Source of the DNA: Lathyrus oleraceus
Lineage: Eukaryota > Streptophyta > Magnoliopsida > Fabales > Fabaceae
Assembly: GCF_024323335.1 (NCBI RefSeq)
Contig: NC_066579.1
Coordinates: 244,029,068-244,093,067, forward strand
Direction of reading: 5' to 3'
DNA: 64,000 nucleotides
Position numbers and translations under genes: made by a program. Shown piece after piece: positions 3,977 to 51,250 of the stretch (its first letter is position 1; each line of letters starts with the position of its first letter). The notes beneath the pieces are model-generated. The model did not search any database. It was given only the letters and a program-made list of their open reading frames with translations, and was not told the origin of the DNA.

Positions 3977-5029
3977 TAGGGATTAAAGCGTATGACTATG
4001 TCCCGTTCTCAGTCAACTTTCATCCAAGTTCGAGGGACTGACCAAGCCAATCACTTCTATCCGACAGCAAGGGATGAGATGCTCGAAGACATAATGACAG
4101 TAGTAGGCTTAAAATCAATAGGACTTCTTCCACATAACTTTCTCTTTGTTTTCGACAATTTCCTCTTACTAGGATTTCTGTCTCCTTGTACACAAATTGC
4201 CTGTTTATAGGCCTCCTTTCAAAATCAATACAACCCTCTTTCAAAAAAAAGATGCTTTTGTTTTTACTTTTCTGTTTTGGTTGCGTAAATGTCCATTGAT
4301 TTAATTTGAATTAATATGTGCATTTGAATATGATAAATGTTTACCAAAATATATGCGTAGAATAGCAATAGCAATTACTACCCGACTTCAGGATCGAGGA
4401 GAAGGTCTAACCATGCTTCCAATGAATCCGCTACCAATTCTATTCCCCCAGCAAGTCTGTTATTCCTCAGAAGAAATTAGCAGTATTCCCCGGCACAGCC
4501 AGTTACTCCCCAACAGAGGTCGGCATCATCAGACAGATTGATCATCTCATCCATCCTCAGCCAAGATCTGTGGAATATTTCTACCATCAGACAGAATCAA
4601 GAACCCCCTGCCGAGAAAGGGTCATCGTTACAAATATCTCCAATCAGTAGATGGGGATTTATTTTCCCCAGTAGAGTCCCCAAGCAGAACTTCTCATACG
4701 CATAACTCATTCATTACATCATTTCACAACATACGCATGCATAAAACATTCACATTTATTTTAGCATAACACGAAACATCTCATACATCATGACATAGCA
4801 TGAAGCTAACTTTTCTTTGCAGGTTAATTATCCTCCTGATATAGTCAAAGTAGAAGGTTCATTCAGACAGACACCTTTATCAATCACATTCAAGATTCAG
4901 ATACATATTTCAAATACAGTTCATGGGAACATTCATTCTGACAACACTTCGATATCCTCCTAACGATGGCATCTCTAAGCCCATCCCAGACATTTATTGC
5001 AAGTACAACATATACAGGTTATCAGATAC
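3977..5029 (+). other. Element A spacer, no coding content
   Basis: I see no conserved protein here. The stretch is AT-rich near 4200-4340, then holds phrases such as CCCCAGCAAG and CCCCAGTAGAG that also occur in the spacers of B and D. It is part of the long 3' untranslated region between integrase and LTR typical of Tat elements. Confidence 0.5.
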
Positions 5030-5720
5030 AGCCTAACGTACGGTTCATTCTGATTCAGCCCAACATATGACTTCTTCAGCAACTCCAATGCGGTCTAACG
5101 TACGACCCATTTGGACCTTCAAATCCTCAGATGCTGCCTAGCGTACGGTACATTCAGGGGTGTAGTCTAGCGTACGACTACTTTCTTTTTCAGATGCAGC
5201 CTAACGGACGGCTCATTCTACAACTCGGATACGATCTAACGTACGATCCATTCTGAACTTCAACAACCCCAACGCGGTCTAACGTACGACCCGTTTGGAT
5301 CTTACAACCCTCAGATGCTACCTAAGGTACGGTACATTTCTGAAGTGTAGTCTGGCGTACGACTACCGCTTTCATCATCAGATGCGGCCTAACAGACGAC
5401 TCATTCTGCGACGGTCTAACGTACGACCCGTTCGGATGTCCATCCCCTCAAATGCTACCTAACATACGGTACATTTCTGAAGTGTAGTCTAACGTACGAC
5501 TACCCCTTTCGTCATCAGATTCAGCCTAACGTACGGCTCATTCTGCAACTCAGATACGATCTAGCGTATGATCCATTCTGATCCTTTATCCCCAACAGCA
5601 TATGACACACTCCGACTCCCCAGCGAAGTCGGCAGCCTAATGGATGACTCATTATTCGGTCTAATGTACGACCCAGTGTGGCACCCATGTCTTCAAATTG
5701 GCCTAATGTACGGCTCGATC
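5029..5720 (+). repeat. Array of about 19 hairpins with constant TAACGTAC loop and changing stems
   Basis: Repeated short units have the form stem-TAACGTAC-stem. Stem classes seen: GGTC/GACC (5092, 5276, 5413, 5658), GTAGTC/GACTAC (5162, 5347, 5484), AGCC/GGCT (5209, 5523), GATC/GATC (5233, 5559), TACC/GGTA (5319, 5457), plus G-T-wobble forms such as AGCC/GGTT (5030). Loop variants include TAGCGTAC, TAACATAC and TAAGGTAC. The stem types recur in a fixed order, giving a higher-order unit of roughly 140-190 bases. No reading frame runs through it. Confidence 0.75.
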
Positions 5721-5894
5721 TGAAGCTTTCGTCATCAAACCTCCCGGATGGCATCTTTAAGCCCATCTCCATCAAGACCAACTGTCGATTCTCAAGTGCA
5801 AATTTTTGGGGCATTCTAGTGTTCAATAATCTTCCACCTCCAGACCACGAATGGCATACACGCCATCCTAACTCTCTCGGTTCAAGAATATTGA

Positions 5895-5905
5895 ACAGGG
5901 GCAGC
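5895..5905 (+). promoter_or_regulatory. Polypurine-tract-like site of element A
   Basis: AACAGGGGCAGC lies directly before the LTR's first TG, the position where the plus-strand primer of an LTR element is expected. It is short and interrupted by C, as in the Ogre copies here. Confidence 0.6.
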
Positions 5906-5940
5906 TGTCATACCCCAAATATTACCCATCATTTTTCCTA

Positions 5941-5971
<31 letters not shown>

Positions 5972-5998
5972 TAATTAATTAATTAATTAATTAATTAA
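5941..5998 (+). repeat. Poly-A run followed by (TTAA)n
   Basis: About 25 A residues are followed by about nine TTAA units, 35 bases inside the LTR start. G lacks the run at this place, so it is a simple-sequence expansion private to this copy, not a retroposon tail. Confidence 0.9.
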
Positions 5999-6088
5999 AT
6001 AATTAAAATAAATATATAAATAAAATATAACAAATTATTTTGGACTTGGGTCTCCCTCATTTCAAGCCCATTACCCACGAAATTAGTC

Positions 6089-6096
6089 TATAAATA
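6089..6096 (+). promoter_or_regulatory. TATA box of element A LTR
   Basis: TATAAATA lies about 180 bases into the LTR in an otherwise AT-poor stretch; G has the same octamer at the corresponding place (10546-10553). Transcription of the element would start roughly 30 bases downstream. Confidence 0.65.
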
Positions 6097-7806
6097 CTGA
6101 AGTTTCAGTAGAGGACACTGGGAGTTACACTTGGAGTTTACACTGGGAGATTCACTGGAGAAAGAAGGAAGAGAAGCAAAACACTCTGAGGTTTCCTTGG
6201 AACAAAACCTTGAGGAAAAAGAAAGAGAGAGAACAGAGAAGGACGGATAGAAACTTTGGCATAGGAACCCTGCCTACCCGGAGAATTCAGAGTAAAGAAA
6301 CCCTGAAGGCAGCCCATCTGCACCGAAGCCATCGCCGTCCAATTCCCGCTGCCTAACTTATTCCGATACTACAAGTGGTCAATCCCTTCAACCTTGAATT
6401 GGCAAACAGGTTTGCGTATCTCTATTGTTTATACTTTCAATTGGCCATATCTACATATATAATGCATCATGATTAAATGTTGATATATAATTTGCTTTCG
6501 TATGGGAATTTAAATATGCCTGAATACCCTGAATGTTTGATCATGTTATTCCTGTGATAAAATGCCATAAAATTCAAAGTTCCTAACGTGGGGCTGTTTT
6601 CAAATTCAAAATCCGTGGCCTATTCTGTTTTTTTTTTATGTTTTATCATAGCCATGCATTATTCATCCTATCCTATTTATTGTTGTGATATTTCTCCGGT
6701 GTAATCTTCGATTGCACCCTGATTTGGTGTTCTGACATGTTTCTTTTTTTGAGTTTCGTAAAGGTTCACATATCCCAGGAAAAGGTTATTGGCTAGGTAT
6801 TCCACTTTATTTGTGGGATACCCTTGTGGAGTTTCACCCTAAATTAATTTTTAATGTATTAATTTCTAATGTATTAATTTTTTTAAAATATTATTTTTAA
6901 TAATTTTAATGTGGAGTTTCATCCTAATTATATAATTAATTGCAAAACTTTGCCTTTGAATAAGTGATCTTGGACCTCTCTTTGTTGCCTTACGATTACG
7001 ATATTACGGTCATGTCCCGCGAACGTGGGGATACCCTTAGCAAAGACCCTTCGGTTAAATCATCATAAAATAAATTATAGTCCCTCGGATGTTGCCTTCG
7101 AATATACAACTTTGTCCCTCGATGACCCTCCGATGTTGCCTACGGTTAAATGATGATAGTCCCTTTGAATGCTAAGGTATCCTCATAACTGTTGCCTTCA
7201 ATGACCAATCGATGACCCTACGATGACCCTTTTACATCCAAAGGATAAAACTACTTATTTCTCAATAATAAGGACAGTTTTACCCTCATAAGGATAGGAA
7301 ATACTCATAAAGACCTTGGGTCGGTATAACTCTTAATTGCTGGCTCACAACCTAAAACATTTTTTCACACCTCACACCTTTCAAAATACCTTCAGAAAAT
7401 CACCACTTGGTATACATTCATACTAGAATCATTACCGAGTTATATTTTTCTAAATAATTTTCAAAACTAAACGAGATAATCACTTTGTATACATTCATAC
7501 AAGAATCATTACAAAGTTAAATTCTCTTTTCAAAACAATTTTTCTAAACAATTCACAAACACTTTTTTTTTCAGACAAAAATAATATAAGTGATCGAGCA
7601 ATTAAGAGCCCATGGATAACCATGGATACAAAGGGTGCTAACACCTTCCCTTTGTATAATGTACCTCCCGAACCCAAAATCTAAATTAAGGTTTTTCCTG
7701 TTCTTTTCCACCTTTCCTTATTGGATAAAAGAAAAGTCGGTGGCGACTCTTGCTAACCGCGACATTGCGATTAAAACCACAAAAAAGTCCAGTTCACTGT
7801 ATGACA

Positions 7807-10484: not shown

Positions 10485-10545
10485 CTGACAGACAACAAAA
10501 AATTTCGGGCTTCATTCTGAGCCCATTAGGTCATCAAAGGAGTAT

Positions 10546-13665: not shown

Positions 13666-16580
13666 CGGGATTTGGAAGTAACTGCATCCTGACAAGACTT
13701 TGTTCTATAGCTGTCATCTGTCAAAGATTCTCGCTCAGTCATCGTCAACTGAAGCTTCAAATACATTGGATTCGGAGTTGGTGGAGAAATGGTCATTATG
13801 TTCAATGTAGCCGTTTTTCCAATATATATCACCAATTTCAAATTTGTAAAGATCCATGGAGTCTCGCCATTTGCGGACTACCATTATATCAAATAAATTT
13901 GAGCCTTTATCCAATTCTTTGCACTCTCATTTGTTTCTGCTTAACAAATGTTTGCATGTTTTAATTGATAAATATCATTATTTTAAACAAATAAAGTTTT
14001 TATAAACTATTTTTAAACAAAGTGAACATTCACAATGACTGAAAGGATAAATGAAATGTCTTCAGTGCTCTCCCAAGGATAGTATGATCTCCCAAAGGGT
14101 AAGACATTTGTTCATATTTTGGCATGTTTGTATCCTCTTCATCATCTTTCAGGTTGTCTCCCCAGCGAGTGCAGAAAGAATAAAACGTTATCAGATCCCC
14201 AGAGAGTCTGGAGTTTTGGCCTCGATCTTTTAAAGATGTGTATACCTCTATATCAGGCACTAGCATTTGTGTTTTATCAATTATATGGTTGTCATCCCTT
14301 GTGTGAACTGACCTAAAATCCCTTAAAAATTGATAAAAGTTGATATGCTACCTATTCAGGAGGAAGTTGGTCTTTCCCCAGTATGAGTAGAAGTCCTCAG
14401 CGGAGTAAGCATGTGTTCCCTGCAAAGCTATCTTTCAGATATCTCCTCAGCAGTAGTTGCCTAGAGCAGTTGGTGAAGGGTTTGTTCCCCTTTTCATCCC
14501 TAGCATAGCACGTGTTGACGTAGGATTCGTTTCCAATTCCCTCAGCCAGGGCAGTCTCCTTTGAGTTTGCCTACAGCTCATCCCCAGTTGGGTCGCCTAC
14601 AGTCCATCCCCAATGGAGTTGCCTGATCCTAGCTTGACATTTGTATCCCCTCCATGATTGAAGATTCTTCCAGTATCGGATGGTGATGAGGAAGATGTGT
14701 TATTTCCTTCCCCAGCGGAGCAAATGGTTCTCTCTCCCCTTAGCAGAGATGTCTCTTCAGCGGTTAGAAGGGAGTATTTTGATGAGTATTTGTTTGGTGG
14801 TTGTTCCCCATAGAGTTTCACATCATTTCCTTGATAAATTCCCCAGTAGAGTTTCTTCTACGACGGATCTTATCGGTATCTTGTCACCTGGTCCCCGAGA
14901 ATTGTTGGAATATCCCCGGCAATCGGAGGCGGTAACTCTGCATGTTCCCCATCTATGACTTTGCCTATCCTTAGCGGTGGTCTGTGTCTCCTGGTATTTG
15001 ATGCTCCCCACCAGATTTTATTTCTCCTATGGGCCTGGCTGCTTTTTTGAGATGTTATACTGGATGTCCGTCCATTGATTCTCGGACCTGTTTGTGTTAG
15101 ATATGTCTGTCTGTCAGCATTAATCATACATAAACCACGCATATACATGCATTCAGATATTCATGTTGCATTCTTTGCCATATATCTTTGCTTGTTGTCT
15201 CCTGCTATTGGTGAAATATCCATCCCTAAGCAGATGTTTGAGTCAGCCCCATAGGTAGAAAGTGTCTATCTTTCCTTCTATATTCCCCACTGAGTCATGT
15301 CCTCGTGGATGATTTTTGTTTCAGTTTCCTCCCCAGTTATGTATTGGGATGGAATTACTCCCCTAAGTTATATCCTCATCGGGTTGAGTCTTGTTTGATT
15401 GTGTCTAGACTAACTCCTTTCTTGCAGTTTCCTGCGGGTTAGTTGTTCAATTGCTCAGTAACCATTAATTGTCCATCTTTTCCCTAGTGGATCTAGTGGC
15501 CTTCTACCTATTAACCGGTAGTTATAAGTCATATATCTATGGTTTTCTACCCAGTAACCGGTAGATGTAATCCCCTCTTTGATGGTTATCTTTATCCAAT
15601 ATTCGGTATTGATATTCCTCCGCTTTCGAGTATACCACCCAATAACCTGTGGTATATCTCCTGGATAATTGCTTTTGTTAGGCAATTCATCCCCCGGTGA
15701 GTCATCTTTCATTTACCCTTGTTTGGTAATGATTATTTCTCCTTTTTGATTGGTCATCATTTTATACCCAGTAACCGGTATCCCGATGTCCTTTCTTTTC
15801 GGTCGATTTATCCTTTATTAACCCAGTAACCGGTTGTGGATAATCTTACATGCGAGTATGTTATCTATGTTATGACGGTAATAGATAATATATCTCATGC
15901 GCTCTTCAGTCGAAGTCTTTTTCTTCCCCAATTGAGTAAGATTCGTATTTCCTTATGGAATCGAATGTCCATCTTGTAGGTCGAGTTTACTTTTTCAGCC
16001 CTCCCTTCGGATGATGAGTGTCTTGGATGTGTTCCCAATTCACGCCTGGTTGGTCACCTATTATATGCCCAGTAACCGGTATCTCGGGTGTTCCTTCCTT
16101 CTTCTCCCTATTATGACTTTTTTCCCCTATGGAGTTAGATTTTCCTGAGTTGAGATGTGCCTTTTGGGTCCTCCTCAGATGTTTCGGATGATTGATATCT
16201 CTCACCCTTATACCGGTCTTAGATATTCCTCCTTCCTGAGCGTGTTGTTCTCTCACCCAGTAACCGGTGTTTTGATAACATGTCTTGCTTTGAGTTTATT
16301 ACCCGGTAGCCGGTAATATCTCGTTGTGTCTTCCTCAACTGAGTCCTTTGTGGACATCTCAGTCTGAGTCCGGATTTTTATCCGATGTATCCTTTGAGGA
16401 TAGTTTTGATGTATTGGCATATTCCCTAATACATGCATCCTTGCGTCAGCTCGAGTCTTTCCATCGATCTATTTTTGTGGAATCCCTTCGAGTCTCCCAG
16501 CAAGTTTTCAAGTCGTGACCTGCTCACGCATTTTTACCTTATTTCCCCCCAGAGTCTCTGTCTTAGTGAGTGTGTTACTC
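13666..16580 (+). other. Element B 3' spacer with hairpin array
   Basis: No protein is encoded. The first part (to about 15480) is rich in CCCCAG(C/T)AGAGT phrases shared with D. From 15504 to 16317 there are about ten short hairpins with a constant loop and changing stems, e.g. CTACC/GGTAG (15504, 15547), TATACCAC/GTGGTATA (15631), ATACC/GGTAT (15764), AACC/GGTT (15820), CACC/GGTG (16254), ATTACC/GGTAAT (16298). An 11-bp hairpin stands at 15857-15892. Element C starts at 16581, after TACTC. Confidence 0.75.
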
Positions 16581-32300: not shown

Positions 32301-35300
32301 TGTAAGACCCCAATTTTGTCCCTAAAATCCCTCACGGCATCATAATATTGCATTGCATAGCCTCAAGGATCATTGAGCATCTTGGCTCCCTTTTCCTTTG
32401 GGTAGGGATCTCTTGTAAGTGGTTTGAGATCACCAAGCATGCTTGAATTGTATATCCTTGCTTTTCTTGTTTTATTCACTAACCAAAAGCACAAAAATAT
32501 GTCATTTAACATCTTTTGTTATAGCTTAAGCAATCACCAGGTCAAGAGCTTCAAGAAGATCCTTTGTGCAAGAGATGAGGTATTTTCTTGGGATGAAGAC
32601 CACATGATCATTATAAGGAGCTTACATGAGCTAGGGTTCCATTTTGAATCTATTCCATCAAGTGGTAGAGGCTCAAGCTAATCAAGACATTTCAAGGCCA
32701 TCTGAGGACCAAAAGTCAACTATGCAGTCAACTAAGGGCTATGAGGTGGGGAAATGAGTTGAGACACCTCAATCATGTTCAAATGAGGTTCATACATCAT
32801 TATAATCATCCATCTTGAAGATTCAAAGGTCATGGCAAAAGTTACTAAAAATGGAAAATGACCTTAAATTCAAAGTTTCCAAATTTGGCAAGTTTTTGGT
32901 CCACATTCAACTTGACTTGTCAATGTCAAAGAAGTTTCAAATGGACTTTTAGTGAACATGAAAGTTGTAGATCTTTGTCTCCCCTTTCCAAAAAGTCTTA
33001 ATTCATGTCCATATGATGAATGGTTGAGAAGTTATGGTCATTTGATCACAAGGTGTGCATGGAAATTCAAAATGACCTAACTTTTGATACAATGCTCCAA
33101 TTTGATTCATTCTTTTTGCAAAATGCTCCTCATGTTCAAGGCATCTCAAAATGACCTCATTTGGCTCAATTATGCAAAGGAATCATGGTTTGTATTCTCA
33201 CTATTTCACACATGTGCATTTTGAAGAAAATATTCATTATTCATTTTTGGCTTAAGGTGCAAGCAAATTAATCATCAAACCATGACCATTGGTTGATCTT
33301 GAGTGAATTCCAAGCTTAACATGGAGTTGTACACGTGGATTATGGTAAGGAAAGATCAATTTGCATTTTTGCAAGATGCTTGAAATCTCATTAATCATGA
33401 TTAGCATTTGGCTTAAGTGATTAGCAGCATCATTAGCATGGGATATAAAAGCTCAAACCCTAATCATAACTGAAGAAAAGAACCAATTCAGATCTGAAAA
33501 TTCAAAACTCCCTCCAATTTCTCTCTCTTCGAATTTTGATTTTCTCCACACAAACACCAAAAAATCTTGCATATTCTTGCTCCTGGTGCTTCACTGAGCA
33601 GGATCCATCCATTGATTGGAGCAATTCAGCCAGATTTCATGCAGATCAAGAGCTTGAACATGGCGATGGAATTTGAAAATTGAAGAAGATTCAAGAGGTT
33701 TCAACTGTTGATTCTTGCTTAAAGCTTCATAGGAAGATCAAAGGAGAAGATCTGGAGCATATGAGCGCTTGAGAACACGATTTCAGCAACCTCCATTTCC
33801 AGGTGATGCAAAATTCATCATCTTCTTTTGCTGTTTTAAGGTCGTAGATGTGTAGATCTTGATTAGTAGAGCTTGTAGATATGATTAGAATTGATTTTGG
33901 TTGAGTATTGAGCATGTATGGTTGACTGTAAGTTTTGATCATGAATATGTTTCTCTTCGATCCTTGGAATCTAGGAAGAATTAGATGAAATTGAATTGAT
34001 ATTTGGAATCCTTGTTGAAGGACGGTTTGAATGGTATAGGCCTCGTGAGTTTCTGCAAAATTTTGTGGCGGCGCCACCGTGCTTGTGGTCGGAGAAGACG
34101 ACCGGAGCTTAGCTCCGGCGTCTGTGTTAAATGTTAGGGTTTGCCTTGTTGGCTGCCATGTGTGTTGTTACGTGTGAGATTGATTGGCTACGATTTCGTT
34201 GACCTTGCCACGCGTGTTTTGAAATCTGATTGTGCATGCTGACTGTTTAATGAAACGCGGCATTTTGCTAATTTGAATGTGGAACGTTGATGCTTGATGC
34301 GCGCCAGATCCAAGGGCGTGTGTTTATTCTGATTTGATTCAAATATTTGAATTTCCCTCCATATTTTCCATGTTATTCCATTTATTTTGTTCATTTTGTT
34401 TAGTTCATTAAAAATGCAAAAATAGTCCAATTTAATCCCAAATTTTTTTCATAGTTTTGTTTTGATCTCTACTACTTTTTTGTGTTAATTTCATGATTTG
34501 TTGATGTCTGGATTTTTATGTGGATATTTTTGATTGAACATTGTGCTAATTTGGTCTATTGCATTCAATGCTTTGTGAAATTCTCTATGTTGAGCCATTT
34601 GATCCAATCTTTTGCATGCTTGACATTCATACATGATGTGAATTTTTGGTCGCTGGTTTGGAATTTTTCTCATATGTTATCATCACTTTTGACACATAGA
34701 GAAAAGTGTGACAATTTGTGTCACATTTTTGACATTGAATTGTTACATTCTTGTTCATATATCATTTGAACCTTTCTGGATTTGATTTTTTGCATATTGA
34801 TTGTTCATGACATGAAGAACTTGTACAAAAAATATCAAAGTCATTGCATGCATTTCTGATTTGAGGTGAATTTTCTAACTTGGAAGTTCATTTTGTACCT
34901 ATTTTTGGTCATTGCATAGCATAGGCCATTTGAGGCACTTGCTTTTTGATTTGATGCTGGTCCTTTTGAGGACATTTTGTGGATTGTTTGAATGTATAAT
35001 GTGCAAAAGATTGGGTTCTGTTTTGATCATTTGACATAGTTTTGAATCTAGTCTTTGCACTAGTGGTTTGTACATAAACTAACCTTGTTTTGTGTTTCAG
35101 GTTTGGACAATTAGCATTGATGGTTGATTTTTCTCATTTTGTGAGATGCAAATGATTTGAGTTCTAACTTATGTTTGTTTTGTAGGATTTTAAGTGATGT
35201 GCTTGAGCTCATGAGTTCATTTGAATGCTTGGGCATTGTTCATTGGATTGTGTAATTGTTGGAAAGTTTCACTGTTTGTCTGTTGGTTTTACAACTGAAA

Positions 35301-37097
35301 TATTAACTGTTTAGTCTTTTTACAGGTACCTTAGTTGCTTGCTTGCTTTTGCTTTTGCTTAAGCTTTGGATTGTGGTTGACACACCACTTAGGTAGTTAT
35401 CTTCTTACTTCATGTAGTCTGGAAGTCCTGTCACCTTTTTGGCAGGCATTTTGCTGGCAAGTCCTCCTTCAGAGGCTCTGTTTGTGTTTGTTTAAAATTG
35501 TGCCAAAGGCCTCCAAGAGAGACATGTGTTACTTGATAAGACCTCCAAGAGTAGAGGCAATTGACGGATAAAAGGGATTAGTAGCCAATCCCCTGTTATT
35601 CAGTGTGTCGTTCTTTATGCTCGCACTACGTGCTGATGCTTCTGAACATGTACCCAAGATCTTTGTCCAGTGTCTGTCAAGCTGAATAGGATCTCACTTT
35701 CTGGATCCCCACGCTTTCTTTGTCATGAGCTCACCCCGGCCAGGGTTAAGAGCATGAGGTCTCATCCTCATTACCATTTTGATCAGCTTCACCCTAACGT
35801 TCAATGTTAGTGGTTAAGAGCTCACTTGATTACCCATTACAGTTTGACTTGTTTGTCAAGGTTGACATGACCCCTCTTGACTAAAGCCCACCCATTGTTT
35901 AAGCCTCTTGTATGTATATAGTGTGTGATGTTTGTTTACTTGTGAACTTTTGATGTGTGTGCTCTTGAACTAGGAGTTTTTCCCTTTGAGCTTAATTTGA
36001 AGATCATTACCATGTTCATCTAAGTGGAAGATACCAAGATACATTGAGGATCTCTTATGAGACTTGTGTGATTGCTTATGCTTTGTGCTTGCATATTCCT
36101 AAGGATGGGATCTACATGGATCATCAATATGATCTCAAGAGTGGAACTCCTAGTGTGGTTTCATTTCTTATTCCTTACCTTTTTGTTCTCCTTATGACTT
36201 AGTCCTTCTCCTTCATTTCTCCACCCTAACCCAAGCCAAAACCTTTTTGTGCAAACATTTGACTTTGTTTTCAACATTAGAAACCTAAGCCTTATGCTTT
36301 TGATTTTAAAACTTTCTTTTCATAACACTCATTTTGAATTGAATCTTTAAGTCAACTTTGACCATTTTGTATATACTTCTAATTGGTAGATATAACCCAT
36401 TCAAATGTCTTTTTGTGGTTTCAATGTCCACTTCTTAATTAAAAAAATTCATAACCTGTAGCTATTAGGTTTGAGTTATCTTTGTGGTAGATGTAATACT
36501 CACCTTTGTCCTTAGTGATGGACAATGAGCCTTCCATGCTTATTATAGGGTTAACCCCTCACTAGCATGTTGAAGCTATCCTCACATTGTGGATTTGTGG
36601 TTTTAGGTTGAGTTTTCTCCCTTTGATAACAAAAGACCTTAAGGCTTTTGGACCAATCAATCCACTCATTTGTTGTTTTAAATTTTTACCCCGAACTACG
36701 AGGTTTTGATCCTAATCTTTTTATAAGAGGGTACGTAGGCAATGGGTTTATCCATCCAAACACAAAATGTAAATAAACTTGTATATTCTCTTCTCATCTC
36801 TTCAATCATGTTTGCATAAATAAAATTTTCACAAAACAATAACCTTTACAACAAGTGTGAAAAGGGCTCCCAAGGAGTACCTAGGATGTTTTGGGTGCCT
36901 AACACCTTCCCATTGCATAACCAACCCCCTTACCCAGATCTCTGTTTCTTTTACTAGTTTTATTTGTAAAACTTTTAGGTTTTTGTTCGCTTTCTAACCA
37001 TTCCTTTGGATAAATAGAAGTGCAGTGGCGACTTGACTTTGAATGATTTACCTTGGATTTAGTCAATATCTCCAATGGTAACGAATACCCCGCTACA
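32301..37097 (+). repeat. Element D 5' LTR
   Basis: TATAAAA at 33444-33450 is the likely promoter, followed by CAAACCCTAATCATAAC and a CT-rich leader. A leader module with CTACG/CGTAG and an inner TTTAT-loop hairpin is at 36693-36740. Near the end, after GGATAAATA, AGTGGCGACT (37024-37033) resembles the primer site that follows the LTR. The short open frames in the LTR match no family. Confidence 0.94.
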
Positions 37098-37103
37098 GAA
37101 AAG

Positions 37104-37121
37104 TGGCGACTCTGCTGGGGA
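37104..37121 (+). promoter_or_regulatory. Primer binding site of element D
   Basis: TGGCGACTCTGCTGGGGA begins six bases after the LTR end. Ogre elements are known to use tRNA-Arg; this sequence stands in that place, but I did not check it against a tRNA. Confidence 0.75.
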
Positions 37122-37946
37122 GATGCGGTCCCTAGTGGGTTTTGCCTACTTTTCACCTTTGTTGTTGTATTATATTGTTTTTTTACATATTTTTGTGCAA
37201 TTTGGGATTACTGTATTATAAGTAATGATTGACTTGCTTGATATTAATTCCTTGTGTGCTTGGTGATGTTTGTGAGATGAGTTCTATACCCGAACTTGAG
37301 TGCAATTAGGATAGGAGAATGGCGTAGTCTTGTCGACTTGTGTGGAGTTATTCCTTAGCAAGTTGACTTGTGAGTCCATTCACTTGGTGGAGGTCATGTT
37401 GGGATCAATAATGTCACACAAGTAAGTTGTGGTTAGACATTACTCTTTCCAATATAGACCTTAGATGCCAAGGACCTTAGTTTACCAAACCCATCTTGGC
37501 CTATTTTTAGGATGTAGTGCGGAAGTCGTTCAAATGTAAGGTTTGGTACGATTGTTATGCGATACTACACTCATAAGAGTCTCTCTTGAGAATATTGTTG
37601 GAATACGAGTAGTCGTTTCTCCGATAATATTCGAAAGATGGGATGATGACTATGGGAACCTCTTGTAGACTTGCAACAAACCCTTGATTCATGGTTGATC
37701 CGTTCATGCATCCTTAATATCAATGGAACTTGGGTGTTGATAAGGTGTAAACCATAATCCACCAAAATGGATGATTGATATTAAGGATAATATGATCCGT
37801 CCCATGACCTTTGTTTGGTGTGCTTTGCTTGATCCTTGAGTGTGATTGTTGCATTCATGCATTCATGCACCCATTTGCATCCATATCATCAATAATAAAA
37901 GAAATTTTCAAGGAACTTAAGGGGTTTATTTGCAAAATTTTCAAAC
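37122..37946 (+). other. Untranslated leader of element D
   Basis: Between primer site and ORF1. I see no protein similarity and no strong repeat; small open frames here are short and unlike known families. Confidence 0.6.
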
Positions 37947-39398
37947 ATGGAAAGACAAAGAAGGAATACAAAGAAGTACAGCTTCAGACAGCCAGATTTG
38001 AAAGAGTTAAGGAATCTGACATCCTATGTATTAGATCCCTTGGGTTTCAAAGCTCGTTTTGGGAAGCTTCTTCCTCTTTTGACTACTCAGGTGGATGAAG
38101 GGTTGATGAGCGTATTGGTGCAGTTTTATGATCCCTTGTACCGATGCTTCATGTTTCCGGACTTCCAGCTTTTGCCTACCCTTGAGGAGTATGCTTATCT
38201 CGTGGGTATACCTATTCTGGATCAGTTGCCGTTCAGTGGCTTGGAGAGTACTCCTACTTCTCAAGAGATAGCTGACATGTTGCACATAGATGAATCTCTG
38301 GTTGGTGCTCATATGACTACCAAAGGTGGAATTCAAGGTCTCTCTTCTGAGTTCCTCATTGCTCAAGCTACTGTTTATGGGAAGGCCATGAGTGAGGATA
38401 CCTTTGAAGCCATATTTGTACTTCTCATCTATGGGTTGGTATTATTCCCCAACATCGACAAGTTTGTGGATGTGAACGCTATTAGGATCTTCTCTGCTCT
38501 TAATCCCGTTCCTACTCTGTTGGGTGATACCTATTTCTCTTTGCATATGAGGAATGCAAAGGGTGGTGGTGCCATTGTGTGATGTTTGCCTCTGTTGTAT
38601 AAGTGGTTTATTTCTCACTTACCTCAGACGGTCGCCTTCAAGGAGAACGAGGGATGTCTACGGTGGTCCACGAGACTTATGTCTCTCACTAATGATGATA
38701 TCTCCTGGTATAACCGTGTATATGATGGTGTGCAAATTATTGACTCTTGTGGTGAATTCTCCAATGTGCCTCTTCTTGGTACATGTGGTGGGATTAACTA
38801 CGACCCTGTTATAGCGCGTCGTGAGCTTGGGTTCCCCCTAAAGGATAAACCTAATAACATTCTGTTAGAAGGTATGTTCTTTCAGGAGGGTAAAGATCCC
38901 CAAGGCTTGAAGGGCAGAATGGTTCGTGCTTGGCACAAGGTTCATAAGAAAGGTAGGAAAGAGTTGGGTCCTAAGAATTGTGTTGCTTTGGAGCCTTACA
39001 CTGCTTGGGTAAGGAAGAGAGCATCTGAGTATCTCATGCCTTACAAATATCCGACACCTACACCTTTGGTTGTGGCTGGGCCCTCAAACCTCCCTAACCA
39101 AGGAGTAGAGGAGTTGAGAGACGAAGACCTATCACGTGCCTGGATCCGTGAAAGGGAAGAGTTGCTTCAGCAGATTAAGGAGAAAGATGCTTTGATAGAG
39201 TTCCCCGAGCATCAGGTTATTGATGATCCTGATGATGCATGGACTTCTCTACTTCCCCAATCTTCCAAGTTTTGGAAAAGGAAGTACGATCGACTCGCCA
39301 AGGAAAAGGCAGATATGGAGGCAGCTTACGAGAGGGAAGTGAAGAGGCTTCGTGCAGCTTATCTTCCTGTGTCCCGAGCTTTAGATGATTGTTTCTAG
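37947..39398 (+). pseudogene. Ogre ORF1 protein (plant-mobile-domain-like), one in-frame stop
   Basis: Start ATG at 37947 (MERQRRNTKKYSF). The frame continues to TAG at 39396, broken once by TGA at 38580-38582. The N-terminal part (LRNLTSYVLDPLGFKARFGKLLPLL ... FPDFQLLPTLEEYAYLVGIPI) resembles the family often listed as DUF7745, related to plant mobile domains. The C-terminal 60 residues are charged and probably coiled-coil (REREELLQQIKEKDALIE, KRKYDRLAKEKADMEAAYEREVKRL). An ORF of unknown function ahead of gag is diagnostic of Ogre. Its last part is repeated at 43547-43741. Function is not known. Confidence 0.85.
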
Positions 39399-39683
39399 GG
39401 ATCCATAGGATGATTATTTTCCTTTTCTCATGTATATGATTAACAATGCTGTACTTCTTTTCCCTGATGCTACTTGATGAGATATTTCCATATGTGATTA
39501 ACAGTTAATATTTCCAAAATTTTCAAATAAAACCCTAGAGTTCCTTTGAAATAAAAACAAATCATATGCACAAGCATTGCATGTATCATATGCATAAGCA
39601 GGTTTTGTTCTCGGCTTCTGGTCCTGTGGTCTAACTCTGTGCTCTCCATTTATTTTGAAGACAAGCTGACTCACCGGTACTAC
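39204..39683 (+). repeat. 480-bp direct repeat, left copy
   Basis: Covers the end of ORF1 and the following untranslated stretch to ACCGGTACTAC. The right copy is 43547-44026; I count 15 differences and no indel. Confidence 0.93.
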
Positions 39684-42578
39684 ATCCCACATTTTCATGG
39701 CCTTTGATTCAGTACCACAAGCAACATCAAACAGCAGATCTTAACATCATTTTCTGTCAATTACAAACCCTAGTAGCAGCCACACCAACTCAGAAATCAC
39801 TCATTCTCTCAAACTTCATTTTTGCATTTTCCAAAAATCTGTCAAAAACTCTCAAAGAACTGAGCCTGGCCATTGTTGTTCCACCATCCAAGCATCATTG
39901 TGGACACATTTCAATCATCATTCTCCATCTGTAACAGCATTTACACAACTGTTTTCTTCAAGCATCAACAATAGCAGAACTCGTGTGCAGCCATTCCAAG
40001 CTATTGCAAGCCAAAGCATCTTCACCATTCATCATTAGGAGGGTTTTAGAGCATCTGTTTCAAACTTAAACATCCAAACAACCATCAAATCACGACTGCC
40101 CTTCAATCTTGGTGAGTTTTTGATCTTCACCATTCTTAAAACTATGCCATGCCTTAGATAGAGTGTGCCATGCTGATCACCATGAAACTTAAATCGTGAA
40201 AAACCATGCCATAATGAGAGAGAACGAGGGTTTTAAAGTTTGTTGTTCATGATTAAATTTGTTCGATTAATGCTTAATATGTTGTTGTTGGATGATATGA
40301 TTGTTGTTTATTGATGCCTGCTGATAGATGTACACGATGCAACGCCTAAAATTCATTTCTGTAAACTTTGCATTTTTCTGGAAATCACGATTGAGGGTGG
40401 TGATGAACAGCGTGTTGTTTTTGGTTGCTGCGTTTTTCCTGCGGATTTTCCTGCAGCCTTCATGAGCTGGCTGCGGATTTTCCTGCGGATTTCTGAATTA
40501 GGGCTTTGTATGAACCGCGCCCTTTTCCATTTGAAACGGACCAATAGAAACATTTCGTTTCCCTGGCCAAAACGCTGCGTTTTGGATAAGTGACCTGGGA
40601 ATTACAAGTTTGCCATTCCCGGTTTTTATTTCATTTAAATCATTTAATTGTTTCAATTTTTATTTCACTTGGCATGGCTCACTTGCAAAAATCATAACTT
40701 GTTCATTTTAAATCCAATTCTCATGGGAATTTTTTCATCATCTTCATCATGATCTCTACTTTTTTATCATATTTTTTCCAGAATTTTGTGATCATTGGTT
40801 TTTGTTTGGCATATTAGTTTGTGACTTGTGACCAATTTTTGTACACTTTGCCAAAACATTTGTGAAATGGTGATACTTTATCCAATGGCTCCCAAATTTT
40901 TTGTGCTTAAACTAGACACACTCATGGTGATTTTGGTATAGAGTTTTTGAATTTATCATTGCTGGTTTGTGAGTTATGATTTTTTGAATTAGGGTGTGAC
41001 AATTTGTGTCACACCATTGATGCCCAACTTCATGATTTTCATTACCATGCTTCTTGAACTCAAATTGGTTTGAATTTTTGCATGAATGTACTCTTGTATG
41101 TCTAGTTTACATGTGAATTTTCTTGGAATTATTTGTGGCATTTCCTAATTGTTTGAGATTTTCTCCCTTGTTTAGTCATATGTTGACTTTTTGCGACACT
41201 TGTTCCCATTTCATTTGTGAAATTCTCATATTTTATTAGAGGGACTTGAAATTTCATATGTGATTACTAGACATCTTAAGCTTTGCCATGGTTTTAGTCC
41301 CATTCATTTATCATACACCATTTCTGATTTATGATTTTTCTAAGTTGATGCATGTTTGGTTGACTTCTTTGAGCATGTTCAAAATTGCTTTGACTTTCTG
41401 ATTTTCATTGACTGCCTTCCACTTGTCCAAATGAGATGAAATTTGACATGCTTACCATGCTATGTGTTAAGATTGATCATGATTTATTTGGTGATTTTTG
41501 GAAATGTTTAAGATTGCTTTCTAGTTAAGTCTTGCTGTTGACTTCTTTGAGCTTCTAAATGCCATGTTTTGACCTAAATTGTTCATGAAATGATGATGAT
41601 GATTGATATGAATGTGAACCCAATTGGTTTTGTTTCTTGATTGTTTGAGCATGATTTTGGATACTTTCCCTTTGCTGTTTTGACTTTTTCATTCTCTTTT
41701 GACCCTAGGTTTGCCCTAGTGGTCCTGTTACTCACTTTTGAGCTTATGTTTTCAGGTTGAGCACCAAATGACCAATGAGACCAATTCTTTTTGGTTGAGC
41801 TTGCTTGAATATCATTGACTAATTTGTTTGTTTTGTAGGTGGCTTGGCTCTCAAGCCTTAAGCCTTGTGCCTTGCACATTCATTTGCTTCTGACTAACTG
41901 TTAATGTCTGGTTCCTTTTGCTTTGTTTTGAAGTTGCATACTAACATCTGCTTGACTGTTTCAGGTGCTTTTAGTTGCTCAGTTCCTTGTGAACTTTTGC
42001 TTTGCTTTGCTTGTATAAGCAATTTGCATTGAGGTATATTTCTCATCTTCATGTAGTCTGGAAGACCTGGCCTGTTACTTGGCCAGGCAACTGTCTGAAG
42101 CCCTCCTTAAGAGGCAATGTTTGTGGATGTTTAACTTTGTCCTTGCATAGAGTCAAAGACCTCCTAAGTGAAGAGGCAATTGGCAGAACCAAGGGATAAG
42201 CAACCTATCCCCTGCTATTCTGTATGTCATCTGCTTTGCTCACACCACTGTGTTGACGCATTGCAGATACAAACCCAAGATCTTGTACAATTGTACAGTT
42301 GAGTCAGTTTTAAATGTGTAGAAGGGTTCCCACTTTCTGAACCCACACATTCTTGTCTTAAGCTCTCCCAGGCCAGGGATAAGAGCTGTGAAGTCTTATC
42401 TTCACTCACCTTTCATCTGCTTCACCTTAGCCCCTCAATGGCAAGGTTAAGAGCACATTCACCCAGTTCCAGAGGTTTGTTTGTTGAGGTTGATATGACC
42501 CCTCGACTAAAACCTAACCCTTGTTTGAGCCTCTTGTGTGCATAGAGTGTGTGCTACCTGTGCTTGTATGTTTGTTTG

Positions 42579-42730
42579 ACTTGCTTCCTGTGCAAGTTAG
42601 GGTTAGTTTAGACTTGCTTCCTGTGCAAGTTAGGTTTTGCTTGGCTTGCTTCCTGTGCAAGTTAAGTGTGTGTGTGGCTTGCTTCCTGTGCAAGTCATGA
42701 TTAGGATAGGCTGGCTCCCTGTGCCAGTTA
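42579..42730 (+). repeat. Five hairpins with T(T/C)CCTGT loop and changing stems (H)
   Basis: ACTTGC-TTCCTGT-GCAAGT (42579, 42612), GCTTGC/GCAAGT with wobble (two copies), and CTGGC-TCCCTGT-GCCAG (last). The last copy changes both arms together. Confidence 0.7.
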
Positions 42731-42851
42731 GCTAGAAACCTTAACTTAGGGACGACTTTGCATGACAACATCTAGGCTCGAGTCGTAGTCTCCCTAGTGT
42801 TGTGTCTCCCTCTGTTATCTGGTTAGGCTAGTCCTGTATCCCTCCGTAGGG

Positions 42852-43228
42852 GAACTACGTCGCCCTGATCCTCATACCAGATGAGGTACGTAGGCAGGAG
42901 ATGAGCAGATCTCTCCGGGTGCTTGTGTCTTTGTTTTGTCAGTTGTGTGCTTGGAAGCTGATGTAAGTCCATCGAGTGGCATTTGGGTTCCAGTGTGCGT
43001 GTGTTTGGTTCGGATGCTGATGTAAGTCCAGCAATTGGCATTCAGGCTCCACGTTTGCCTTAGCCTGTGTTTGTTTGTGTGCGTGTCAGCCGAGCTACGA
43101 ATGCTCTGATTCTCCTTCGTCCAAGGAGATACGTATGCATAGGATGCGATATCCTAGCGAGCATGTGTCGTTTCCCCAGTCCGAACTACTTCGACTCTGA
43201 TGTCTATGCCTGATAGACTAAGTAGGCC
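42852..43228 (+). promoter_or_regulatory. Three two-stem leader modules in H
   Basis: Inner hairpins CCTCAT-ACCAG-ATGAGG (42870), TCTCCTT-CGTCC-AAGGAGA (43111), GTCTAT-GCCTG-ATAGAC (43202). Outer pairs: CTACGT/ACGTAG in the first, and CTACTT (43186-43191) with AAGTAG (43220-43225) in the third, a double change that keeps pairing. Confidence 0.65.
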
Positions 43229-43546
43229 CAGGATGCAGTATCCTGCCGAGTCAGTCTTGTCTGTTTTCTTGTGTCTCTTTCAGCCAGTGTGTGTGTGTGT
43301 GTGAGCAGTGTTTAGCAACCATTTTCCTTTCCATTATGCGTGGATCCCGTAGAGTACTACGGATGCGTAGGGGTGCTAATACCTTCCCTTCGCATAACCG
43401 ACTCCCGAACCCATCCTTTTTGGTCGCGAGACCATGTTCTTTCCAGGTTTACTCTGAGCGTTTCCTTTCCCTCTTTTGGGATAAATAACGCACGGTGGCG
43501 GCTCTGTTGTTCTTGTTTTCCCGCCGGTTTTTCGCGTGATGCGACA

Positions 43547-44026
43547 CTCGAGCATTAGGTTATTGATGATCCTGATGATGCATGGACTTCTCTACTTCCC
43601 CACTCCTCCAAGTTTTGAAAAAGGAAGTACGATCGACTCGCCAAGGAAAAGGCAGATATGGAGGCAGCTTACGAGAGGGAAGTGAAGAGGCTTCGTGCAT
43701 CTTATCTTCGTGTGTCCCGAGCTTTAGATGATTGTTACTAGGGATCCATAGGATGATTATTTTCCTTTTCTCTTGTATATGATTAACAATGCTGTACTTC
43801 TTTTCCCTGATGTTATTTGATGAGATATTTCCATATGTGATTAACAGTTAATATTTCCAAAATTTGCAAATAAAACCCTAGAGTTCCTTTGAAATAAAAA
43901 CAAATCATATGCACAAGCATTGCATGCATCATATGCATAAGCAGGTTTTGTTCTCGGCTTCTGGTCCTGTGGTCTAACTTTGTGCTCTTCATTTATTTTG
44001 AAGACAAGCTGACTCACCGGTACTAC
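43547..44026 (+). repeat. 480-bp direct repeat, right copy
   Basis: Repeats the ORF1 tail with a TGG-to-TGA stop near 43617, and continues into the true gag leader. Confidence 0.93.
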
Positions 44027-44050
44027 TCTAGAGCCAACTCGTCAAGATTG

Positions 44051-47000
44051 ATGGATCATCTAGAGCAAGAGAACCGTGAACTCAAAGAGGAAGTTGCCAG
44101 ACTGAGTGCTTTGATGGAATCATTCCTGGCTGCCCAGAGCCAGTCTTCTTCAACACCTTTAACTCCTCCCTAGAGGACAGTCATCTCTGAGATTGTTTCC
44201 TCAACTGTGCCTACAGCCAATGCACACTTTGTGCCGACAGCCATGCCAACCGGGTTCCCGTGGGGGATGCCTCCTAATTTCATGCCTGAGGGCCCTGCTC
44301 CAATTTTTGCTTCTATGCCGGCATCTAGCCCGATCCTTGTTGTTCCTCCTCCTGTCGTGCATACCATGCCTAGGGTAGACGACACCATCTATCATTCTGA
44401 GCCATCTGAGGCCCCAGATGTCCATGAGAAGATGGATGCTATGAATGACCAATTTCTGGAGCTTCGCAAGGAATTGAAGACTCTTAGAGGAAAGGATCTC
44501 TTTGGCAAGTCTGCCGCCAAATTTTGCTTGGTTCCCAATGTGAAGATTCCTGTGAAATTCAAGGTCCCTGACTTTGAAAAATACAAGGGGAATACTTGTC
44601 CTCTCAGCCACCTGGTCATGTATGCCAGGAAAATGTCTACTCAGACTGATAATGACCAGTTTCTCATCCACTACTTTCAGGACAGTCTGTCTGGTGTTGC
44701 CCTGAGATGGTATATGGGGCTTGACAGTGCGAACATTCGTTCCTTCAACGACCTTGGCGAAGCCTTCTTCAAGCAGTACAAGTACAATGTGGATATGGCT
44801 CCCGATAGGGATCAATTGAGGGCCATGTCCCAGAAGGACAAGGAAACATTCAAAGAGTACGCCCAGAGGTGGCGAGAGTTGGCAGCACAGATCGTGCCTC
44901 CGCTAGAAGAGAAAGAAATGACCAAGATTTTTCTGAAAACCTTGAGTTCATTCTATTATGAGCGGATGATTGCTAGCGCTCCTTCTGACTTCACCGAGAT
45001 GGTGAACATGAGGATGCGGTTAGAAGAAGGGGTTAGAGAAGGACGGCTAACCAAGGAAGAAGGCTCTTCTGCCAAACGTTATGGGGCGTTTGCAAAGAAG
45101 AAGGATGGAGAGGCACATGTTGTGACCTCCCATGCGAAACCAAGAAGACCGTCTGTGAAGAGGAAGACTGTGCGTCTTGCCGGTAACCAGCACCAGGTGG
45201 CTCATATAGCATCTGTTTTCAGAGACAATCAACAGTATCAGCAACATCGCAACAATCAACAACCACCTCAGCAATATCAACAGCAACAACATCGTCCGCA
45301 ACAGCAGGCCTATCAGTCTCGAAACAGTAATGAAACCAACACGAGTTACGAGAGGAAAAAGGTCACTTTTGATCCGATTCCGATGACGTACGCAGAACTA
45401 TATCCCTCTTTGATAGAGAGGAAGTTGATTACTCCGAAAGACCCACCAGCTATACCTGCTAACCCTCAGTGGTGGTATAAGCCTGAATTGCATTGTGTAT
45501 ACCACTCTGGTGCTCCCGGCCATGACGTGGAGAATTGCTATCCTTTGAAGACCAAGGTTCAAGACCTTGTGAGGTGTGGCATCCTGTGTTTTGAGGACGT
45601 AGGTCCTAATGTGAAGAAGAACCCATTGCCCGAGCATGGGAAATCTGTCAACATGGTCCAGGGCTTCCCTGGCAAGTACAAAGTCAAATATGTCAGTCAT
45701 ATTCGACAATCCTTGGTCGAGTTGCACCCTTTGCTGTGCGAGTACAGTCATTGTGAACACGACCATGATAGATGCCGAATCTGCCCTGTTACCCCTTTGG
45801 GTTGTCGCCAGGTGCGTAAAGATCTTCAGGAAATGTTGGACGAAGGAGTTATTGAGATTCTCCAGAATAGGAATGTTGACGAAGATGAGCCTGAGGTCAA
45901 CGTGATTTCCCCAGTGTTTCGGATACTTGAACCTGTTATTATCAAGTACGATGGTAGCAAGCAGAAGGTTTCCCCTTCCTTGATCGTTATGCATGCCGTT
46001 CCTGTACCGTATTCTTCCGAAAAAGCAATTCCCTTTCGTTACAATGCTATTACTGTAGAAGATGGGAAAGAGATGCCTTTACCATCCTCCTCTGTTGTGA
46101 ACATTGCTGACGTAAGTGGTTTGACCCGCAGCAGTCGTGTGTTTTCTGCGCCACCGAAGCCCCAGGCTAAGGCTGCTTTTGTTGAACGTCCGATTGGGAA
46201 TGCTGTGAGCACCCCGAATCCGGAACCTGTTGTTAAGCCCTCCTCTGTACTAAAAACTCCTACTTCTGTTGGCCCTAGCGGCAATGTGAAAGAAGACTGT
46301 GATGAGATGCTGAAGCTCATCAAGAAGAGTGTGTACAACGTTGTAGACCAGCTTCTACAAACGCCATCCAAGATATCCGTGTTATCTTTACTTCTGAATT
46401 CAGAACCGCATAGAGAGGCTCTGCATAAAGTTTTGGATGTGGCATATGTAGATCATGATGTCACTATAGAACAGTTCGATAACATTGTTACAAACATTAC
46501 TGCTTGTAACAATTTGAGTTTCTATGACTCTGATCTCCCTGAGGAGGGAAGAGACCATAACTTGGCTTTACATATATCCATGAATTGTAGAAACGACGCC
46601 ATGTCCAATGTGCTGGTGGACACTGGGTCATCCCTGAATGTATTGCCAAAAACCACTCTCTTAAGACTGTTTTATCAAGGGCCTCCCATGAGGCAGAGTG
46701 GGGTAGTTGTGAAAGCTTTCGATGGGTCTCGAAAAATGTGATTGGGGAAGTTGATCTCCCAATCAAGATTGGACCAAGTGATTTCCAGATTACCTTCCAG
46801 GTTATGGATATTCACCCATCATACAGCTGTCTCCTAGGCAGACCATGGATTCACGAGGCTGGCGCCGTGACATCCACCCTACACCAGAAGCTGGAATTTA
46901 TGAAGAATAAGAAATTGGTAGTGGTAGGGGGAGAAAAGGATCTCCTGGTTAGCCACTTGTCTTCCTTCTCATACATAGATGCTGAAGATGAAGTTGGAAC

Positions 47001-47349
47001 TCCTTTCCAAGCTTTATCTATAGCTGAGCCTGTTGAGAAGAGAACTCATTCATTTACTTCCTATAGAGATACGAAGTTGGCCATTGAGTGTGGTGCAATT
47101 GCTGGTCTAGGAAAAATGATTGAGCTGGAAGACAATAAGTCCTGGGTTGGCATTGGTTTTTCTTCTGGGATCTTCAACGAAAAAGGATTATTCAAGAGTG
47201 GAGGTTTCATCCACACTGGTCAGGAGGAGGAAGTTGTTGTTGTCTTGGAAGAGGATGCAGAGGATTCTGACAATTTCATTATCCCTGGAGGGGTCTGCAA
47301 CAATTGGGTCGCTGTGGATATTCCTACAGTTGTTCACAAGTCAACGTAA
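44051..47349 (+). pseudogene. gag-pro: Ogre gag-protease of element D
   Basis: Start ATG 44051 (MDHLEQENRELKEEV, a coiled-coil start). A TAG at 44171-44173 breaks the frame. It then runs to 46741, where one missing base near 46737 shifts it; the rest continues from 46738 to TAA 47347-47349. A retrotransposon gag domain lies about 44700-45050 (WRELAAQIVPPLEEKEM). The knuckle CVYHSGAPGHDVENC is at about 45495-45539, with a second cysteine/histidine patch near 45740-45800. Protease Asp-Thr-Gly is at 46619-46627, with LLGRPWIHEAGAV after the shift. Q-rich tracts lie between gag and the knuckle. Gag packages RNA and the protease matures it; this copy is broken in two places. Confidence 0.92.
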
Positions 47350-47611
47350 TGATCACTTTGTTTAAAAACTCTTCTCCCATGCCAAAAGGAGAAGTGATGA
47401 CATTGTTGGCAACATAAATACAATGATATTTTCATTCAATAAATTCATGTTAAATGTTTGTTTTTCCAATTATTTTCCCTTTTTGCTTTTTGCATGAAAT
47501 TGGTGATCACATAAAACCCTAAAAAAAAGAATAAAATCAATCTTTTCATCTTCATAATGATTTGTCTTGTTTGATTTCTAAAAGCTTTTCATATCCTAAA
47601 TCATTATGCAG
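47346..47611 (+). other. Predicted intron between gag-pro and pol (element D), 266 bp
   Basis: Donor GTAATG starts at 47346 inside the stop codon: the last codon and TAA read ACG TAA. Acceptor TTATGCAG ends at 47611. Joining the sites removes the stop and keeps the frame into the pol leader. An intron here is known for Ogre. If retained, translation would end exactly at the exon border. Confidence 0.8.
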
Positions 47612-51074: not shown

Positions 51075-51103
51075 AAACAAAAACAGAATGGCTCGCTATG
51101 TTG

Positions 51104-51250
51104 AAAAACCGAAAGGGCGGCTTAGGCAAAAATGAGCGTCTCGGTGGATTGAAAACCCGAAAGGGCGATCCAGGCAAAAGTTAGAGACATAAAAAATGAA
51201 TATATGCATCCCGCTAGATTGAGTACCTCATCCTGGGGCAATCTTGGCAA
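51104..51250 (+). promoter_or_regulatory. Post-integrase GAAA-tetraloop modules (element D)
   Basis: TGGAT (51145-51149) pairs with ATCCA (51168-51172) around CCC-GAAA-GGG, then GGCAAAAG. An earlier decayed copy (ACC-GAAA-GGG) starts near 51107. A third stem AGATTG/CAATCT (about 51215-51245) ends in GGCAAAAA. Confidence 0.6.

Follow-up and report, generated by a model that had tools for sequence, protein, structure and literature searches.

Near-constant loops and co-varying stems in hairpin arrays of the 3′ untranslated regions of pea Ty3/gypsy retrotransposons

Variable tandem repeats in the 3′ untranslated region (3′ UTR) of Tat/Ogre retrotransposons are already known, and these hypervariable repeats have been described as a source of satellite DNA (PMC7004042, Vondrak 2019, citing Macas 2009). 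In the literature found, the Ogre 3′ UTR is treated as a fast-changing repeat and a satellite nursery. The locus considered here lies in a stretch of 64,000 nucleotides of the pea (Lathyrus oleraceus) genome, C1:244029068-244093067 (contig NC_066579.1; the whole stretch is hereafter the window), which consists of a nest of Ty3/gypsy elements in this legume. One of them, element A, carries a tandem array of hairpins (array A) between its coding region and its 3′ long terminal repeat (LTR), as in the Tat hypervariable 3′ UTR repeats, and the placement of the array in the 3′ UTR of a Tat/Ogre-type element, made by an initial annotation from the sequence, is upheld. Array A resembles the Tat/Ogre repeats, reported in the legume Lathyrus sativus, in being downstream of gag-pol, tandem and variable (PMC7004042). 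The arms of the hairpins change together, and two families of elements in one genome do so with different loops. Stems that change on both sides of a near-constant loop suggest a fold that is kept for a purpose.

Each unit of array A is built from an outer stem, a 3x3 internal loop or bulges, a variable inner stem of 4-6 bp and an 8-nt loop, TAACGTAC. Between 5022 and 5723 the loop is found in 17 copies with at most two mismatches (20 match rows minus three overlapping, off-register rows) and in one further copy at 5638 with three. The initial annotation had estimated about 19 hairpins; the array stands and the count is corrected to 18 units, the extra candidate at 5062 being degenerate and folding at only -3.1 kcal/mol. 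All five stem classes that it had described as co-varying around one loop are present (AGCC/GGCT, GATC/GATC, GGTC/GACC, TACC/GGTA and GTAGTC/GACTAC). The inner stem is fully Watson-Crick over at least four pairs in 13 units; in three more (5034, 5139 and 5704) four pairs are completed through G-U, as had been noted for AGCC/GGTT, TGCC/GGTA and GGCC/GGCT, and a single C-A mismatch breaks the stem in the other two (5390 and 5638). Loop positions T1 and A7 and the closing C-G pair are the same in 18/18 units, an invariance that is partly built in, as the units were found by their loop. Folding adds an outer covarying stem in most units, absent from the initial annotation, which reads TCAGA/TCTGA or near it in many, is TCCAA/TTGGA with TG/CA beside the inner stem in unit 5096, and has CG/CG at that place in unit 5280; over the 18 units 75.6% of outer-stem cells are paired. 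The stem classes are copied across the array by a 137-bp higher-order repeat, and the independent compensatory events are therefore few, or modest in number; traced by hand, at least five double changes would be needed to link the five inner stem types. The motif CTAACGTACG, with up to two mismatches, matches 40 times in the window against 13.9 expected (0/100 shuffles); the interval 5033-5712 holds 18 of these rows, including an overlapping row on the minus strand.

Tests made by class or on a tree exclude chance as the source of arm pairing in array A. With the arms re-paired between units, cognate combinations averaged -8.86 kcal/mol and permuted ones -4.82 (standard deviation 0.73; 0/20,000), and when the units were collapsed to six classes the cognate arrangement ranked 1 of 720. 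The named structure had 85.2% of 162 cells paired against 67.9% when shuffled, and a covariation of 0.620 against 0.275 (both 0/500), exceeding all versions of itself slid out of register (covariation at most 0.245); pairs with two-sided change numbered 8 against 5.8 (28/500). For the inner helix alone, pairing was 97.2% against 78.3% and covariation 0.742 against 0.319 (both 0/500). RNAalifold predicted both helices from the 18 units unaided, with two-sided change in seven of eight pairs. A null which keeps the tree and the changes per column, with trees drawn from all columns or from non-stem columns, reached the observed covariation in 0/1,000 simulations for the inner helix, the outer helix and both together; the percentage paired was less extreme (19 and 2 of 1,000 for the inner helix, 57 and 19 of 1,000 for the outer). 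Ordinary decay of tandem repeats, which the initial annotation had doubted could keep arms complementary, does not explain the pairing under either the permutations or the tree null, and its proposed check by shuffled arms came out the same way here and in the genome loci described below: shuffles do not match the cognate pairing. As a whole, array A folds with z-scores of -3.2 (sense strand) and -2.7 (antisense strand; 20 shuffles each). In 120-nt windows, with both strands taken together, mean z-scores were only moderately low for the arrays (-0.81 to -1.83) and ranged from -0.74 to +0.40 in eight other regions. A covariance model of the array A unit, run over the window, recovered 13 of the 18 units and had no further hits, and thus does not reach the second family.

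This second family, which like the genome-wide abundance shown below goes beyond the initial annotation, comprises dispersed hairpins in the 3′ UTRs of elements B2, B1 and B3, with 8-nt loops CAGTAACC and CTTATACC or close variants, a near-constant ACC/GGT adjoining the loop and variable pairs outside it. Family A thus has one near-constant 8-nt loop and family B two, each with a small set of stems. Re-pairing energies at the level of classes placed the cognate arrangement at rank 2 of 5,040 in B2 and rank 5 of 40,320 in B1, for units that were picked with their stems in view. Aligned copies carry, for example, TATTACC/GGTAATA in B1 and TGTTACC/GGTAACA in B2 and B3. Where the helices of one copy were scored in its aligned counterpart, pair breaks from B1 to B2b were 17 against 32.3 expected (0/500), those between the close pair B2b and B3 were not fewer than expected (198/500), and eight control comparisons returned 17 to 375 of 500.

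Both families are abundant in the pea assembly (3.795 Gb in 1,550 contigs; C1 has 463,644,500 bases). The core of family A, CTAACGTACGAC, has 14,715 occurrences and its reversed control 117; for the core of family B, ACCCAGTAACCGGT, the numbers are 62,779 and 4. Loci were sampled solely by the presence of a core and units within them by loop alone, giving 39 A loci (L045-L083), which are all clusters among the matches listed in the first 26 Mb of C1, and 40 B loci (L093-L132) of the 49 clusters among the matches listed in its first 8.5 Mb; the exact B core is found in none of these A loci and the exact A core in none of these B loci. Among the A loci 38 different arm orders occur, yet several are clearly close copies; together these loci contain 438 units (loop with at most one mismatch) with 43 distinct arm pairs. 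At the four inner positions 327 of the 438 are all Watson-Crick and 399 are Watson-Crick or G-U; among 145 exact-loop units of the B loci the corresponding numbers are 86 and 109. Permuting right arms among the distinct arm pairs gave a paired fraction of 0.726 against the observed 0.860 in A, and of 0.505 against 0.739 in B outside ACC/GGT (0/5,000 in each case). The initial annotation had proposed that arms changing independently in other family members would mark the structure as chance; in these loci, where a comparison of that kind was run in some form, covariation recurs.

Units of the A loci were also selected by stem, the arms being 4 to 14 bases apart, and an 8-base loop was then found in 87/87 GTAGTC/GACTAC, 112/113 GGTC/GACC, 101/104 TACC/GGTA, 29/29 TGCC/GGTA, 96/97 AGCC/GGCT and 95/170 GATC/GATC units, 44 of the remaining GATC/GATC cases being CATTCT, the spacer between two units. 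The array A loop is a consensus rather than a constant. As a separate observation, some TACC/GGTA units carry TTCGGACA in place of TAACGTAC, the stem and the loop length being kept and the loop sequence swapped. In 30 of the 39 A loci a GGGG stretch and the TGTCATA start of an LTR follow 185-372 nt after the last matched unit.

The best explanation, to which we give an even chance, is that selection acts on the fold of these hairpin arrays, either in the genomic RNA of the element or in its minus-strand cDNA. Arrays placed just upstream of the polypurine tract would then serve as a cis-acting, multivalent docking platform, in which a protein would read the loop and its closing pairs and the stem would need only to be paired. 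The likeliest reader would be the element's own Gag, during packaging or assembly, a host RNA-binding protein being the second candidate. Avidity would come from the repetition, and stems that differ from unit to unit may make neighbours less prone to mispair.

Several results weigh against selection on the fold. No strand of action stands out: pairing is equally good for antisense arms (rank 2 of 720 in array A), local folding z-scores are alike on both strands, and the ratio of G-U to A-C departures is similar in shared (6:4) and rare (10:11) arm types (p=0.70), with no signal of the RNA sense strand. For the inner helix alone, pairs with two-sided change (222/500) and further pair types (435/500) are unremarkable; double compensatory changes in the aligned B copies (3 against 2.2 under a position-shuffle null) show no excess; and arm permutation at the homologous terminal unit is not significant (522/5,000). 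Some arm types that are not fully paired are inherited in the A loci (CGTC/GACA in 7, CTTC/GACG in 6 and AGCC/GACT in 4 of 39). The loop itself varies, the 87 GTAGTC units having TAGCGTAC in 30 cases and TAACGTAC in 16, and TACC-TTCGGACA-GGTA making up 48 units in 7 of 39 loci (L045, L055, L061, L063, L066, L070 and L071). Finally, loop length is looser in family B, with 8 bases in 71/82, 22/22, 18/36, 45/60 and 1/3 units of five stems.

The same 3′ UTRs hold a second kind of repeated motif. In both families sequences near TCCCCAGCAGAGTC recur, which are the complement of most of the primer binding site (PBS) of B2, TGGCGACTCTGCTGGGGA; this we take to be a tRNA-Arg site, and the pairing partner of the motif in element A is assumed, as the primer site of that element lies outside the window. 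Scored so that C to T and A to G changes, which leave pairing with the PBS intact, count half, the motif has 28 sites at threshold 11.5 in the window's four 3′ UTRs and none in six control regions, with permuted motifs averaging 0.2 sites (0/300 reach the count). At threshold 11 there are 34 sites against 2 in the controls, and a stricter permutation that keeps TCCCC gave 0/300 at 11.5 and 1/300 both at 11 and at 12. The sampled loci contain 77 sense sites in A (39/39 loci) and 175 in B (39/40 loci), and no antisense site in the 39 A and 40 B loci. Forty permuted motifs averaged 1.6 (A) and 1.3 (B) sites, with single extremes of 34 and 11, and those with TCCCC kept averaged 3.7 and 8.7, with extremes of 71 and 44. 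A broader proposal, which we hold only tentatively, is that the 3′ UTR is a structured RNA control region, whose hairpins and PBS-complement motifs could together fold the genomic RNA or make it circular, offer it to Gag and govern tRNA priming. Should this be true, its tens of thousands of copies would be among the most numerous structured RNA motifs of the genome.

The main rival to selection on the fold, and in our judgement an unlikely one, is that one arm is copied from its partner by template switching, in the course of reverse transcription or of replication, in which case the fold would have no function. Template switching has been proposed to create and maintain RNA hairpins and would likewise give perfect arms that change together (PMC8794818); for the tandem repeats of this region, abnormal strand transfer or illegitimate recombination has been hypothesised (PMC7004042). 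The process needs no RNA-strand preference, and none was found. It can leave inverted loops, of which the sampled loci have none: all 204 loops scored in A and all 106 in B are forward. This is weak evidence against it, because according to the source such inversions hardly ever occur and an intrastrand route, also proposed there, would leave the loop as it is (PMC8794818). Template switching is further opposed by the inheritance of G-U versions by many elements (TGCC/GGTA and AGCC/GGTT, each in 19 loci) and by outer stems that covary across internal loops and bulges.

Rather improbable is a role of the palindromes as DNA, either as cruciforms or as dyad sites recognised by DNA-binding proteins, for example transcription factors or anti-silencing factors. 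Palindromes are strand-symmetric, both strands score alike, and CGTACG, formed by the loop and the closing G, is present in 10/18 units of array A, all of which agree with such a role; repeated palindromes of Sirevirus LTRs have been suggested to be regulatory (PMC2829016), and for noncoding parts of transposable elements there are reports of VANC anti-silencing proteins (PMC5735166, PMC10398659). A dyad-binding protein should however hold its half-sites constant, and here the half-sites vary around a near-constant centre, a point that does not touch a structure-dependent cruciform.

Little credence is given to historical accident, in which a few chance-paired stem types arose once and were spread by the higher-order repeat with no selection. 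Consistent with it, five arm types make up 323 of the 438 A units, the 137-bp repeat copies them, and tests at homologous sites find no excess of double changes. Against it, the tree-preserving simulations never reach the observed covariation, the second family behaves alike with another loop, and four rare types seen once each are also fully paired (CATC/GATG, TGTC/GACA, CGTC/GACG and AACC/GGTT). Kissing contacts between loops for dimerisation of genomic RNAs, which the initial annotation had thought conceivable from the 4-nt palindromes of the loop and which have a counterpart in the kissing loops modelled for Ty1 (PMC5454406), are very improbable, with ACGT intact in 7/18 and GTAC in 13/18 array A loops and no self-complementary 4-mer in CAGTAACC of family B.

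A coding function of 4901-5900 was rejected, with at least 12 stops in every frame of both strands; the longest stop-free run there, 125 codons on the minus strand, was set aside without a protein search. Over the window Rfam gave 0 matches at its gathering threshold and no tRNA gene was found. A pattern scan of IMG/VR returned a single match in each of 36 stretches, which were regarded as chance without inspection, and protein scans of viral and genome contig collections found no relative.

Positions of the arrays and of the element features around them are given in Table 1. Only the end of element A, which is nested inside element B1, lies in the window. Its open reading frame (ORF) at 35-2203 has a weak aspartyl-protease match just under the Pfam cut-off, its 3′ UTR starts at about 3786, and no match to a second RNase H domain (aRH) was found in the three open frames scanned. 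A counterpart of B2 49118-50409, a stretch that includes the part matched by RVT_3, seems to be missing between 3106 and 3123, and element A is apparently a degenerate copy. An inverted repeat, GTTCAA-GAATA-TTGAAC (5880-5896), overlaps the start of its putative polypurine tract and recalls the inverted repeat at the polypurine tract of Sireviruses (PMC2829016). Element B1 also contains an A-type solo LTR (10257-12247), which is flanked by ATAAG on each side and carries a 26-bp tandem repeat at 10405-10483.

DUF7745 ORFs (37947-39398) lie in the 5′ part of element B2, upstream of the gag ORF at 44207; an extra 5′ ORF is a mark of Ogre elements, and DUF7745 is presumably that ORF. The ORF at 48336-49184 has RT and RT_RNaseH domains, and that at 49281-50759 has RVT_3 at residues 27-145, followed by the zinc-binding and core domains of integrase. 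In the Ogre clade of Tat the aRH sits between RH and INT (PMC6317226), and the RVT_3 of B2 is probably this domain. With the putative aRH in this position, the extra 5′ ORF, and its LTRs, target-site duplication and PBS-like site, B2 matches the Ogre clade of Tat. Element B3, at 62.6-64.0 kb on the minus strand, is another partial copy. Another Ty3/gypsy element on the minus strand, at 20419-29191, has LTR-like repeats that are 99.6% identical and is apparently a recent insertion; it holds a 1,282-aa open frame (22579-26427), and ATACGCGTAT palindromes occur in the tandem repeats of its LTR-like ends.

Table 1. Positions of hairpin arrays, their units and associated element features in the window
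Feature	Position	Strand	Detail
Array A	5022..5723	+	18 hairpin units
Unit 5034	5030..5045	+	AGCC/GGTT (G-U pair)
Unit 5096	5092..5107	+	GGTC/GACC, outer stem TCCAA/TTGGA
Unit 5139	5135..5150	+	TGCC/GGTA (G-U pair)
Unit 5168	5162..5181	+	GTAGTC/GACTAC
Unit 5202	5198..5213	+	AGCC/GGCT
Unit 5237	5233..5248	+	GATC/GATC
Unit 5280	5276..5291	+	GGTC/GACC, CG/CG adjoining stem
Unit 5323	5319..5334	+	TACC/GGTA
Unit 5353	5347..5366	+	GTAGTC/GACTAC
Unit 5390	5386..5401	+	GGCC/GACT (C-A mismatch)
Unit 5417	5413..5428	+	GGTC/GACC
Unit 5460	5456..5471	+	TACC/GGTA
Unit 5490	5484..5503	+	GTAGTC/GACTAC
Unit 5527	5523..5538	+	AGCC/GGCT
Unit 5562	5558..5573	+	GATC/GATC
Unit 5638	5634..5649	+	AGCC/GACT (C-A mismatch; loop with 3 mismatches)
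Unit 5662	5658..5673	+	GGTC/GACC
Unit 5704 (terminal)	5700..5715	+	GGCC/GGCT, long outer stem
Putative polypurine tract, element A	5894..5905	+	AACAGGGGCAGC
3′ LTR, element A	5906..7806	+	TGTCATAC...GTATGACA
Homologous hairpin set, element B1	15504..16318	+	
Loop positions, element B1	15509, 15552, 15769, 15824, 16070, 16207, 16258, 16304		
Element B2	32301..59565	+	LTRs 32301-37097 and 54770-59565, 97% identical; CTAAG on both sides
Primer binding site, B2	37104..37121	+	TGGCGACTCTGCTGGGGA; PBS-like match
TCCCCAGCAGAGTC-like motif, B2 3′ UTR	51755..54532	+	12 sites at score 11.5
TCCCCAGCAGAGTC-like sites elsewhere	4508, 4666, 5618 (A); 14.4-16.1 kb; 62.6-63.7 kb (minus)		
Array B (element B2)	52828..54145	+	Dispersed hairpins, variable stems
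Loop starts, array B	52833, 52876, 52977, 53218, 53413, 53650, 53898, 54036, 54087, 54131		
Homologous hairpin set, copy B3	62814..63655	-	

If pairing is the property that is conserved, the Ogre 3′ UTR has a function. Conserved pairing would also make testable the question, to our knowledge open, of how the genomic RNA of plant Ty3/gypsy elements is recognised and packaged; the 14,715 and 62,779 exact cores in one genome are an ample supply of natural variation for the study of covariation. A reason why hypervariable repeats arise in this region might follow as well, since hairpins at which reverse transcriptase stalls would favour strand transfer.

A search of open-licence PMC papers found no description of constant-loop, variable-stem hairpins in the Tat/Ogre 3′ UTR. 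The palindromic motifs of Sireviruses are, like the arrays here, palindromes present in many copies in noncoding sequence of plant LTR retrotransposons, but they belong to Ty1/copia elements, lie mostly in the LTR, and combine constant CGG-CCG arms with a spacer that varies, the opposite of array A (PMC2829016); the present arrays have a near-constant centre and variable arms, and lie outside the LTR of Ty3/gypsy-type elements. The kissing-loop dimerisation and packaging hairpins of Ty1 share with them sequence-specific loops in the RNA of an LTR retrotransposon and provide a model for a possible Gag target, although they are located at the 5′ end and consist of a few hairpins with two complementary loops rather than an array with a near-constant loop (PMC5454406). 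The repeats of the Tat/Ogre 3′ UTR have been described as sequence repeats (PMC7004042, where 'palindrom' and 'secondary structure' are absent from the main text), while the conserved property found here is the pairing of the arms together with the loop.

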